Of a stretch of 64,000 bases of DNA, positions 4,522 through 16,437 are shown piece after piece; positions within the stretch are counted from its first letter, which is position 1; every line of letters begins with the position of its first letter. Both the position numbers and the translations under genes were made by a program. The notes under the pieces were generated by a model. The model searched no databases and was not told where the DNA came from. It saw only the letters and a program-made list of their open reading frames with translations. The stretch is from an uncultured Armatimonadota bacterium (lineage in GTDB: Bacteria > Armatimonadota > Armatimonadia > Armatimonadales > Armatimonadaceae), in contig CAIVZM010000048.1 of NCBI GenBank assembly GCA_903910385.1, positions 1 to 64,000 of the forward strand. The letters run 5' to 3'.

Positions 4522-5391
4522 CTACGGCGTCACGGGAGTAAGGCGAATGGTTTCGCCGTCGTGGGGCCAGAAGGCGTTCGGGAAGATTTTTTGGGCGACG
4601 GTGAGGGTTGCCTGCTGGCTACGTTCGCGACAATGGACGAGGGCAAGGCGAGTGACGTTACCGTCGACGGCAAGTTGCGCCGCCTCCGGGGCGGCCTGGT
4701 GTCCCCATCGGTTTTCGGCGGGAATCGGTCCGGGGCCGTAGGATGCCTCGGTGATGAGCAGGTCGGCGCCGCGAACGCAGTCGACGAGGTGTGGGGCAGG
4801 GGCGGTATCTCCGGTGAAGGCGACGACTGAACCTGTCCGCAGGTCAGTGAAGCGGTAGCAGAGCGCCGGGACGGGATGTACGGATGCGGCGGTCTCAATG
4901 CGGAAATCGTCGTTTTCGAAGTGGTCACCGGGCGCAAGAGGACGGATATCGACGGCGGCTTCGGCATTCAACTCGGGAAACCGGGAGGTCTGGAGCAGAT
5001 CAAGGGACAGTCGGACGACTTTTTCTACATCCTCCACCGGGCCGAAAATGGTCAGTGGCGGGCCGCTGGGGGCGTTCATGGCGCGATAGAAAATCAGGGC
5101 GGGAAGCCCGAGGTAATGGTCGTGATGGCAGTGTGTCAGGAACAGACATTCCAGCGCGAGGGGATCGAAGCCGAAGGACTGCATGCGGAGGACGGCGCAC
5201 CAACCAGCATCGACGAGATAGCGCCCATTGAGAAGAAAACTGGCGGTATCGTGACCGGGGCCGGGCGTTGCGGCGGCGGTTCCCAGAAAGGTGATAGCGG
5301 TGGCGTTTATCGTCGAAGTGGATGTTATGGATTCCATATTCAGGATACTCTCGTCACGGCTTGGGCTCGGTTTCGATTTTTTGCCGGACAT
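4522..5391 (-). CDS. Metallo-beta-lactamase-fold hydrolase, RNase Z-like
   Basis: A 289-aa protein with the full set of zinc ligands of the RNase Z/arylsulfatase branch: H87-C-H89-H-D91-H92, H172 (VHPVPALCYRF, like the family's VxHxxxxxGY element), D195 in FTGDT, and H253. The family cuts tRNA 3' trailers or hydrolyses phosphoesters and sulfate esters. The long exosite of true RNase Z is not evident, so tRNA processing is only one option. Met19 (position 5337) may be the true start, because the first 18 residues are polar and unconserved-looking. It converges with the transporter gene; the stops are 18 bp apart. Confidence 0.8.
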   Translation of the reverse strand: MSGKKSKPSPSRDESILNMESITSTSTINATAITFLGTAAATPGPGHDTASFLLNGRYLVDAGWCAVLRMQSFGFDPLALECLFLTHCHHDHYLGLPALIFYRAMNAPSGPPLTIFGPVEDVEKVVRLSLDLLQTSRFPELNAEAAVDIRPLAPGDHFENDDFRIETAASVHPVPALCYRFTDLRTGSVVAFTGDTAPAPHLVDCVRGADLLITEASYGPGPIPAENRWGHQAAPEAAQLAVDGNVTRLALVHCRERSQQATLTVAQKIFPNAFWPHDGETIRLTPVTP

Positions 5392-5948: not shown

Positions 5949-6851
5949 ATGCACTCATTGAAGACTGTTGCACCGCGTAAAGCCTTTACGCTGATCGAAC
6001 TGCTTGTGGTTATCGCTATTATAGCGATACTTGCCGCTATTCTTTTTCCTGTCTTTGCGCAGGCGCGCGATAAGGCGCGTCAGACTTCCTGTTTGTCCAA
6101 TGTAAAGCAGATCAGCCTCTCGATCCTGATGTATGTTCAGGATTATGATGAGGCGTTCCCGCTGGCGGCGGCGGAATCGCCGACGGACAAGTATATCTAT
6201 GACTATTCCTGGGTCAGCAAGACTCAGCCTTATGTCAAGAGTCTGCAAGTATTCATCTGTTCAAACGGTAAGATGTCGCCTTCTCTCAGTAGCGCCGATG
6301 TCGCCCCCTCTACAGATATAACTCAGTCTGGGACGGTAGGCGTCACTACCCGACCAAAGGGAGGACCAATCGTCAGTTATGGGATGCCTTCTCGCGCCGC
6401 GTATTCTTATTTTTCCAGTGAATGTGTCGGCGAGGCGTGTTACTACCAGAACGAATATACCGGCGATATCGCTCTTTACGACGGTATTGGCGGGTATGGA
6501 GCGGATGTCAATTCGGCGCAGGAATGTGGCGGCCCAAAATATGCCACTCCAAGCCTGGGTATTGCGGGAATCGCCCGCCCGGCGGATTTTATTCTTCTGG
6601 AAGAAACAAGCCGCTATGATGTAGGCGGATGTTCTGGCTTTATCGCTTATCCCCGTACACGCCATGCTTTGCAGGGAACACAGTTAACGAAAATCCCCGA
6701 TGACTTGCCGAAAGGCATTGTCGGTCTTGGAATATGTAATGTCGCGTTTTCGGATGGGCATGCCAAGGCACTACGAGGCGAAAAACTGTATGAAGTCCAG
6801 CAAGACGAATCCGGGACGAAATACTATACGCATTTCTATCCCGTCCGATAG
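5949..6851 (+). CDS. Type II secretion-like pseudopilin with DUF1559-type C-terminus
   Basis: A 300-aa protein with a class III signal: prepilin peptidase would cut before Phe13 (KA|FTLIE), leaving Glu17 as the conserved Glu5 of the mature pilin, followed by a hydrophobic helix to about residue 37. The C-terminal part ends in a [10 protein letters not shown] motif, close to the processing-associated H-X9-DG domain common in Planctomycetota, Verrucomicrobiota and Armatimonadota, where dozens of paralogues per genome occur. The role is probably a surface or pseudopilus subunit; the actual substrate is unknown. GAGGA lies 10 bases before the ATG. A strong hairpin follows the stop. Confidence 0.9.
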
Positions 6852-6873: not shown

Positions 6874-6913
6874 GGCAGGGCAGCGGAAACGACCATGATT
6901 CCGCTGCCCTGCC
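6874..6913 (+). terminator. Hairpin terminator after the pseudopilin gene
   Basis: A perfect 15-bp stem (6874-6888 with 6899-6913, GGCAGGGCAGCGGAA/TTCCGCTGCCCTGCC) with a 10-nt loop starts 22 bases after the stop. There is no long T-tract after it, so it may stabilise the 3' end as much as terminate. Confidence 0.7.
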
Positions 6914-7250
6914 GCATTTATGGCAATGATGCTGTAAAATGTTTCCTTCAACAATTTTGCCATTTTTCTTCCCTTTCCCATTAATCTTTTGTACAAGACG
7001 CCGAATAATGTTCAATAGATATGAGGGAATGTTTTTCTGTGCGCTATCATGGGCAGCGCCAAATCTTTCCTCGGGTTGTTAGTTGCGCTATAGCGGAAGA
7101 ATGCCCCCTGGCTTATGACTGTCATCGTCGATGGTCAGACGCCGGGAGGGCGCTCCCTTTATTCTCGCTTTAGAATTTTTTTAGTCTGAGAACGAATTGA
7201 CCGGACTGTCCGAAATTTCGATGTTGAACGCACCGTGGCGTCCCGGTCAA
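6914..7250. other. Gene-free stretch, possibly a second short RNA on the plus strand
   Basis: No protein gene is supported. On the plus strand a weak promoter-like pair (TTGCCA 6957-6962, 17 bases, ATTAAT 6980-6985) precedes about 190 nt of hairpin-rich sequence. This ends with a GGGAG/CTCCC hairpin (7144-7157), a small ATTCT/AGAAT hairpin and a run of seven T near 7176-7182. The -10 box is poor, so this is only a possibility. Confidence 0.25.
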
Positions 7251-7259
7251 GAAAATGAC

Positions 7260-7301
7260 AAAAAAAGACCTCTCCGGCGCTGGAAGGGCTAGCCGGAGAG
7301 G
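7260..7301 (-). terminator. Intrinsic terminator of the minus-strand RNA
   Basis: Read on the minus strand, CCTCTCCGGC (7301-7292) pairs perfectly with GCCGGAGAGG (7278-7269) across a 13-nt loop, followed after two bases by seven T (7266-7260). This is the cleanest Rho-independent terminator in the window. Confidence 0.85.
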
Positions 7302-7596
7302 CAAAATGTCCGCTAAATGTGCGTTTAGCGTAAGCGAGAAGCTACGCGCTCCACCCCAAACGACCCGGCAAACGCGAGACCCTCAATGCAGATCAAATCA
7401 ACGACCGTACATTGGCGCCTCGGTCTTACCGCGTCCGCCATACGGGACGCTCGTCTCGTTCGGAAAATCCGTAACGTGCAGGAGAAACCGATGCCATGAA
7501 CATTGGATTGTGTTATGACTGCGCTATTGGTGCTGTCCAATCTAACGTTCAAAGTGGCGGCGCTTCCCTGGGCGAAAGGGCGTAACCTACCCACGT
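7260..7596 (-). ncRNA. Candidate stand-alone structured RNA, about 337 nt, family not recognised
   Basis: A near-consensus minus-strand promoter (TTGCCA, 17 bases, TATAAT at 7630-7602) points to a start near 7596, and a strong intrinsic terminator lies at 7301-7260. Between them are foldable elements read on the minus strand: TGAACGTT-A-GATTG pairing with CAATC-C-AATGTTCA (13 bp around one mismatch, near 7536-7498), GCGTCC/GGACGC, and CGCTAAA/TTTAGCG just before the terminator. The only long ORF here starts upstream of the -10 box and so is unlikely to be expressed from this promoter. I looked for and did not find the conserved cores of RNase P, tmRNA or SRP RNA. There is no downstream gene close enough for a riboswitch role. 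Confidence 0.65.
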
Positions 7597-7601
7597 TTTG
7601 A

Positions 7602-7630
7602 ATTATACACACGTTGTGGTGTGATGGCAA
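7602..7630 (-). promoter_or_regulatory. Sigma-70-type promoter driving the minus-strand RNA
   Basis: Read on the minus strand: -35 TTGCCA (7630-7625), exactly 17 bases, -10 TATAAT (7607-7602). The predicted start is six to seven bases on, near 7596. Confidence 0.75.
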
Positions 7631-7641
7631 GTAAATTTAGG

Positions 7642-7679
7642 ACTTATTTCAAAAAAAGTTTTTTTATTTTGAAATAAGT
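7642..7679. repeat. AT-rich palindrome upstream of the RNA promoter
   Basis: Arms 7642-7654 and 7667-7679 (ACTTATTTCAAAA/TTTTGAAATAAGT) match perfectly over 13 bp, with an A/T-run centre. It lies 12 bases upstream of the -35 box of the minus-strand RNA, in DNA much richer in AT than its surroundings (about 7640-7760). It could be a regulator site, an UP-like element or a bidirectional terminator. The following 7680-7954 holds a TATAAT (7694-7699) and a 63-codon ORF (7709-7900) that I cannot support. Confidence 0.6.
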
Positions 7680-15133: not shown

Positions 15134-15398
15134 GGTTTCTCTCTCTCCTTCAACCCGCTCTCTTCAGGTCAAAAGATATCTCTCTCTCGAAAACTCGCTC
15201 TCAGAAGGTTGGACTACGGAGCCCCGGATAAATGTTCCATTCGCGACACAATTTTTTTTAATATTTTTTGTAACAGTTTTTAGGACGGCAAACGAGAGGC
15301 GACGATGCGCCGGAAACGCAGGAAACAGGGGGGCGTAACGCGAATTCAGAGTCTCGTTACGAAGGTTATCTCAAACAGAGCAATAAGGAATTTTGAGG

Positions 15399-16373
15399 AT
15401 GGATTATGTGTTAGAGCGGATGCCCCGGCAACGCTTCGCGGGAATAATTATCGCCATCTTTACGCTGGCGGCATCGGCGTTTTTCCTGTCGGGATGTGGG
15501 GGCGGCAGTAGTGACAATGGTGGGGGATGTAGCGGCGGAGACCGCTATGTAGCGGTCAATACCTACGACGGTTCCGGGCGCTATATCGCGGAATTCAATT
15601 TTTCGCAGTATAACGCTGACACTGTCTGCTCAGGTGGTTCCACGACCGTCTTACGCATTCGTAACCGCAGTGGCTACCCGCTCTGTACAACATACCGCGT
15701 TGAATTTTTTGATACGTACGGGTCACGTCGCTGGACTTATGAGGGGAGGATCAATTATCTCAACCCTAACAGCAGTACAGATGTGGGAACGATTTCCACC
15801 AATCCTTATCCGATTGACTCGGGGACATTGCGGGTGACCTTTCTTTCCGACCCCTACGATTCTTGCTCCAGCGGCGGCGGCAATGTCATGGTCGGTTCCT
15901 GGCAGGGAACAGGACGCTCTTCGGGTTCGTTCAATCCTACGATTCCGTCCCGAAGTGTCAATATCTATATGACGGTCAGTCAAAACGGATCGACGAACAT
16001 TGATGTCCGATTTCTGGACGCTACCGGGACTTTTGAGACCGGGCAGGTGGAACGATACAGCGGTTCTACAGATACGGGTGCGTATTTTCAGGGAAGTGGT
16101 TCTGCGCCCTGGGGCGATTTCACTACCGAGGGCTTCTTCGATGATAAGGGGAATGGGCGGCGAGGGATTTTCCTCTCGAACTACTACAACGCCAACCATA
16201 TCAATAATCAGGCCGACGAAAATATCAACGGGTCGATTGTTAAGACCAGTAAGTCCGTCCTCGATGGTAAGAATGTTTCCGATAGCAAGGCGGGCGCAGT
16301 GAAGCCTGTCGGCGTTACGTTCGGCGGAGGTAACTCTACTCCGAAAACTCCAGAGAAGCCGCTTGAAAAGTAA
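15399..16373 (+). CDS. Ser/Gly-rich surface lipoprotein
   Basis: A 324-aa protein. The N-terminal signal ends in lipobox FLSGC followed by a GGGSSDNGGG linker, indicating a lipid-anchored envelope protein. The mature part looks all-beta, rich in Ser, Thr, Tyr and Gly. It has two parts: a first domain with several Cys (DTVCSGGS, YPLCTTYRVEFF) and, from about residue 165, a lipocalin-like segment (VGSWQGTGRSSG, then NGRRGIFLSNYY). I do not recognise the family. The ATG at 15399 has AAGGAA eight bases upstream and is preferred to the TTG two codons earlier. A repeat and terminator follow. Confidence 0.7.
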   Translation: MDYVLERMPRQRFAGIIIAIFTLAASAFFLSGCGGGSSDNGGGCSGGDRYVAVNTYDGSGRYIAEFNFSQYNADTVCSGGSTTVLRIRNRSGYPLCTTYRVEFFDTYGSRRWTYEGRINYLNPNSSTDVGTISTNPYPIDSGTLRVTFLSDPYDSCSSGGGNVMVGSWQGTGRSSGSFNPTIPSRSVNIYMTVSQNGSTNIDVRFLDATGTFETGQVERYSGSTDTGAYFQGSGSAPWGDFTTEGFFDDKGNGRRGIFLSNYYNANHINNQADENINGSIVKTSKSVLDGKNVSDSKAGAVKPVGVTFGGGNSTPKTPEKPLEK

Positions 16374-16387
16374 AAGCTGAGGGCTTT

Positions 16388-16437
16388 GAACATCGAATAC
16401 GAACATCGAATACGAACATCGAATACGAACATCGAAT
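16388..16437 (+). repeat. Tandem 13-bp repeat
   Basis: The unit GAACATCGAATAC occurs three times exactly (16388-16400, 16401-16413, 16414-16426), followed by eleven bases of a fourth copy. It lies between the lipoprotein stop and its terminator. Such exact short repeats change copy number by slippage. Confidence 0.9.

Follow-up and report, generated by a model that had tools for sequence, protein, structure and literature searches.

A candidate free-standing structured RNA gene with its own promoter and terminator in an uncultured Armatimonadota bacterium

In a window of 64 kb (the whole stretch of DNA analyzed here), the minus strand from position 7596 to position 7260 carries a candidate gene for a free-standing, structured non-coding RNA of ~337 nt, which has its own promoter and terminator and would act in trans by its shape, via a protein or RNP. 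We lean toward this reading taken as a whole. By our judgement, it is highly probable that the RNA gene is real, and, given a real gene, a protein- or RNP-binding mechanism is fairly probable. The preliminary description of this DNA had proposed an undescribed, independently transcribed, structured RNA at this site, and the proposal is supported by the lack of any Rfam match, by the non-coding character of all frames, and by a fold that is specific to the minus strand. Free-standing structured RNAs are a known kind of gene, and the candidate would found a new family among them. Essentially no small-RNA work on the phylum was found in the open literature, so that the RNA, if transcribed, would represent a new family in a phylum almost without such literature. 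With its tightly defined four-way junction, the RNA would lend itself well to structure determination and partner identification. As one sequence from one genome, it counts as a good lead, not as a discovery.

The signals at both ends of the RNA were compared with the rest of the window. The promoter, TTGCCA-17-TATAAT at 7630-7602 of the minus strand, agrees with the consensus at 11 of 12 positions. Sites with at least 11 matches out of 12 occur only twice in the 64 kb when both strands are counted, and the promoter predicted for the RNA, of a strong sigma-70 type, is one of them. Farther upstream, at about -47 to -84 relative to the inferred RNA start, lies a palindrome (7642-7679) consisting only of A and T, which is the sole copy in the genome even when up to three mismatches are allowed. 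Since an UP element or operator would lie at this distance, the palindrome may possibly serve as an UP-like element or an operator; a bidirectional terminator is likewise possible. At the other end, the terminator stem CCTCTCCGGC/GCCGGAGAGG encloses a 13-nt loop and is followed by TCTTTTTTT (about 7301-7260, minus strand). Only two sites in the 64 kb combine at least nine contiguous pairs with a T run, this terminator being one of the two. It was missed by a standard terminator scanner because the loop limit of the scanner is 8 nt. The inferred start at ~7596 and the inferred end at ~7260 give the length of ~337 nt. The near-consensus promoter, the strong terminator with seven T, the ~337 nt bracketed between them on the minus strand, and the upstream AT-rich palindrome had all been reported in the preliminary description, and all four were found to be real. 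The coordinates of the features are listed in Table 1.

Table 1. Positions of the candidate RNA gene, its predicted structural elements, and adjoining signals in the window
Feature	Position	Strand	Basis or remark
Predicted non-coding RNA, 337 nt	7260..7596	-	Ends inferred from promoter and terminator
-35 hexamer TTGCCA	7625..7630	-	Promoter consensus scan
-10 hexamer TATAAT	7602..7607	-	17-nt spacer to -35
AT-rich palindrome (ACTTATTTCAAAAAAAG...TTATTTTGAAATAAGT)	7642..7679	.	16-nt arms, 94% complementary
P1 closing helix, 5' strand	7570..7594	-	Pairs with 7334-7356; probabilities mostly 0.9-1.0 (lower for three internal pairs)
P2 arm of four-way junction	7480..7569	-	Arm alone, z -3.2
P3 short hairpin of junction	7457..7476	-	z -2.7
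P4 arm of four-way junction	7357..7453	-	Arm alone, z -4.1
P1 closing helix, 3' strand	7334..7356	-	Pair probabilities
P5 hairpin, between junction domain and terminator	7311..7330	-	Fold
Intrinsic terminator: 11-bp stem with 2-bp extension, then seven T	7260..7302	-	Fold and window scan
Hairpin, 15-bp perfect arms	6874..6913	+	3' of gene 5949-6851; terminator role inferred

No coding signal was detected in any of the six frames over 7260-7596. The frames scored -0.16 to -0.49 bits per codon, compared with a mean of +0.26 for the genes of the window and +0.05 for the weakest of them. Two spurious ORFs, at 7325-7630 on the minus strand and 7255-7518 on the plus strand, were rejected as genes; they have no Pfam match and negative codon scores. 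The RNA region matches the genome once only and is thus single-copy, and an intergenic repeat or MITE RNA was rejected on this ground.

The predicted fold of the RNA was evaluated against shuffled sequences. The whole RNA had a folding energy of -145.7 kcal/mol (z -5.55), and none of 100 shuffles was equally good. For the core, from which P5 and the terminator were omitted, z was -4.92, the ensemble defect was low, and none of 300 shuffles matched the energy, the ensemble defect, or the base-pair distance. Folding at 25°C or within either of two longer contexts left all of the 120 pairs in place. The pair probabilities were mostly 0.9-1.0 across the predicted structure. The same core on the plus strand gave a z of only -1.08, indicating that the excess stability is limited to the minus strand; the 17 G-U pairs of the structure become A-C mismatches on the opposite strand. 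The local null distribution, taken from 91 tiles on both strands of the window, had a mean z of -0.23 (sd 1.12, minimum -4.65), and a somewhat longer stretch around the minimum tile reached only -2.18 when refolded. These calculations, a thermodynamic prediction from one sequence, describe the RNA as a compact four-way junction in which few nucleotides are left single-stranded. The structured RNA proposed in the preliminary description finds support in a fold that is strand-specific and sharply defined. Fold, promoter, and terminator are three independent signals, and they agree on the minus strand. In favor of a structured gene, the promoter and the terminator both stand near the top of their distributions in the window and have the same orientation.

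In the mechanism that we propose, the RNA would be transcribed from its own sigma-70-type promoter and stopped by the intrinsic terminator. P1 would join the 5' end to position ~264 and so close the domain, P2, P3, and P4 would radiate from the four-way junction, and P5 and then the terminator would follow. The RNA would work in trans through its shape, binding or sequestering a partner that is presumably a protein or an RNP. The predicted fold contains several unpaired runs, each of only 5-8 nt, and no extended single-stranded region. Because nearly all of the RNA is paired, action based on shape is favored over long antisense pairing, and we consider a folded, protein-binding RNA most likely, rather than an antisense sRNA.

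The main rival to the protein-binding reading, less probable in our view but the one to be taken most seriously, is a base-pairing regulatory sRNA that is structured for stability and represses mRNAs with a short seed. In favor of this rival, the candidate has its own promoter and intrinsic terminator, as do classic trans-acting sRNAs, the predicted fold offers several unpaired runs, all of 5-8 nt, and the fast evolution of sRNAs would fit the missing homologues described below. The linker GACAUUUU (7310-7303) or the P5 loop CGCACA might conceivably provide the seed. Against it, the RNA exceeds the usual sRNAs in length, nearly all of it is paired, and no single-stranded region is extended.

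To place the RNA among known families, the preliminary description had called for an Rfam search. No match was obtained by cmscan with 4227 families, either in the whole window at the gathering score or in the region at E values up to 10, and the covariance models of OLE, ROOL, GOLLD, raiA, and HEARO gave no match at the gathering score or at E up to 10. A nucleotide search of related genomes followed by covariation analysis had also been suggested. The blastn search of 291 genomes of the phylum (E up to 1), among which the genus of the source is represented by one genome, yielded merely chance matches of 18-41 nt scattered over the query. When a covariance model was derived from this one sequence and the fold predicted for it, the 291 genomes gave no match but the RNA itself. 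Thus, no relative was detected by either method in the 290 other genomes.

More focused searches gave similar results. When ~1.6 Mb of the family member G005 was searched with the covariance model without pre-selection of candidates, only chance matches were observed. The best of these (E 0.1, L108:14520-14660) was a long inverted repeat, near-perfect, that matched only through its palindromic stem, and it was rejected as a homologue. With nhmmer --max, selected loci gave only matches with E >1. Nothing was found by the RNA model beside FGGY kinases at 16 loci, and in two family members (L037 and L041) the orthologues of the neighboring FGGY kinase follow an ornithine-cyclodeaminase-like gene, not an RNA. 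A kinase scan of genome contigs returned only distant kinases, from actinobacterial MAGs. The phages and plasmids searched held no relative; in viral contigs, nothing was found by pseudo-translation, and a single 18-base match in GC-rich DNA was unsupported by the model.

The identity of RarA to that of the relatives compared is 72% at best. An RNA that evolves fast may thus readily escape recognition, and the missing homologues are therefore weak evidence against function. To that extent they may be counted against the structured RNA gene: with no homologue among the 290 other genomes, the predicted pairs draw no support from covariation. The same lack of relatives in phylum genomes, phages, and plasmids would also suit a non-functional or decaying segment, such as an old mobile element or pseudogene, in which the promoter, the terminator, and the fold would have come together by chance. 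We regard such a segment as unlikely, given the agreement of three independent signals on one strand, the single copy, and the lack of a family match for either spurious ORF. Furthermore, those neighboring proteins that matched Pfam have metabolic, transport, or regulatory roles, and none among them is a transposase, a reverse transcriptase, or an RNA-guided nuclease.

We compared the candidate structured RNA with known RNAs of similar character. Both tmRNA (RF00023) and RNase P RNA (RF00010) resemble it in length and are independently transcribed. In the window, ARAGORN identified neither a tRNA nor a tmRNA, and tmRNA was rejected because the region has no tRNA-like domain by ARAGORN, no T-loop motif, and no RF00023 match. 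RNase P RNA was also rejected; the bacterial RNase P models did not match the region, and the genome's own copy lies at C24:90038-90411 (271.8 bits). The earlier impression that neither RNA is recognizable in the region was thus correct. As a separate observation, the source genome (95% complete) contains no tmRNA over the Rfam cut-off, so its tmRNA may be missing, split, or diverged; six weak RF00023 matches were seen, and those checked mostly overlay tRNA genes identified by ARAGORN. Ornate RNAs of the OLE, ROOL, GOLLD, and raiA type are likewise elaborately folded, free-standing, bacterial, and of unclear function (PMC12286853). GOLLD members are often >800 nt, and GOLLD and ROOL reside in phages or prophages (PMC12286853). 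Unlike these RNAs, the candidate has no Rfam match, and no phage or tRNA context was found for it. The GC content of the region is 0.55, compared with 0.34 and 0.47 in the flanks. In this respect it resembles the candidates of GC-rich-IGR pipelines, structured islands that are GC-richer than their flanks and lie in long intergenic regions (PMC8632094, PMC8723152). Those candidates are backed by many homologues (PMC8632094, PMC8723152), whereas none was found here.

6S RNA (RF00013) is also free-standing, with its own promoter and terminator, and highly paired, and protein binding is expected of both RNAs. The characteristic partner of 6S is the RNA polymerase holoenzyme, on which 6S serves as the template for pRNA. 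We found RF00013 matches in 24 of 61 phylum genomes, including three of the seven genomes of the sister family, and in none of the 12 genomes of the source's family, the source genome among them. 6S has been lost or has strongly diverged throughout this family. In several relatives (L061, L065, and L066 among them), 6S adjoins an AAA-ATPase gene, which we take from its sequence to be rarA. The source's own rarA locus, on contig C84, has no 6S match; the candidate RNA lies on contig C48, flanked by genes for a DUF1559 protein and an FGGY kinase. 6S usually adjoins rarA, as in lactic acid bacteria (PMC8414754), whereas the candidate adjoins a sugar kinase gene. Furthermore, 6S RNA is a rod of 160-200 nt in which a large central bulge separates two helical arms (PMC8414754), whereas the candidate has 337 nt, longer than usual 6S RNA as had been noted at the outset, and a predicted four-way junction. 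RF00013 matched neither the whole source genome at E 0.001 nor the RNA region at E up to 10. The candidate was therefore rejected as 6S RNA on size, shape, the RF00013 model, and rarA synteny.

A functional replacement for 6S, binding the housekeeping RNA polymerase where the family has lost or radically changed 6S, would fit both the distribution of 6S and the empty rarA locus. We consider it improbable; the size, the shape, and the unmatched RF00013 model count against it as well, and the RNA occurs in one genus only, whereas 6S is missing family-wide. Still more speculative, and in our view very doubtful, is that the RNA founded a new structured class, confined to one genus, and that RNA polymerase, or another housekeeping complex, came under the global control of this class where the family lost canonical 6S. 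With the apparent absence of 6S from the family, what replaces it becomes directly testable.

The RNA is the sole occupant of a 1.1-kb intergenic gap on contig C48. On the terminator side lies the plus-strand DUF1559/prepilin gene 5949-6851, and the hairpin 3' of it, if it is the terminator of this gene, would leave the RNA region without a convergent transcript. On the promoter side, the palindrome is followed by the divergent FGGY sugar kinase gene. The closest downstream minus-strand gene ends at 5391, 1.87 kb away, in keeping with the almost 2 kb given in the preliminary description. A terminated leader would likewise show a promoter, a structured region, and a terminator in succession. 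At this distance, however, and with the opposite-strand gene 5949-6851 between, the RNA is highly unlikely to be the leader or attenuator of a gene downstream, and an attenuator or riboswitch leader was rejected on these grounds. In the same gap, the plus strand at 7031-7157, to which no gene was assigned, showed a modest fold excess (plus-strand z -2.5) and a short hairpin, with the T-rich GGGAGGGCGCTCCCTTTATT after it at 7144-7163. Elsewhere in the window, a perfect tandem array of GAACATCGAATAC (x3.8) was observed at 16388-16437, directly 3' of an ORF (15393-16370) for which Pfam gave no match.
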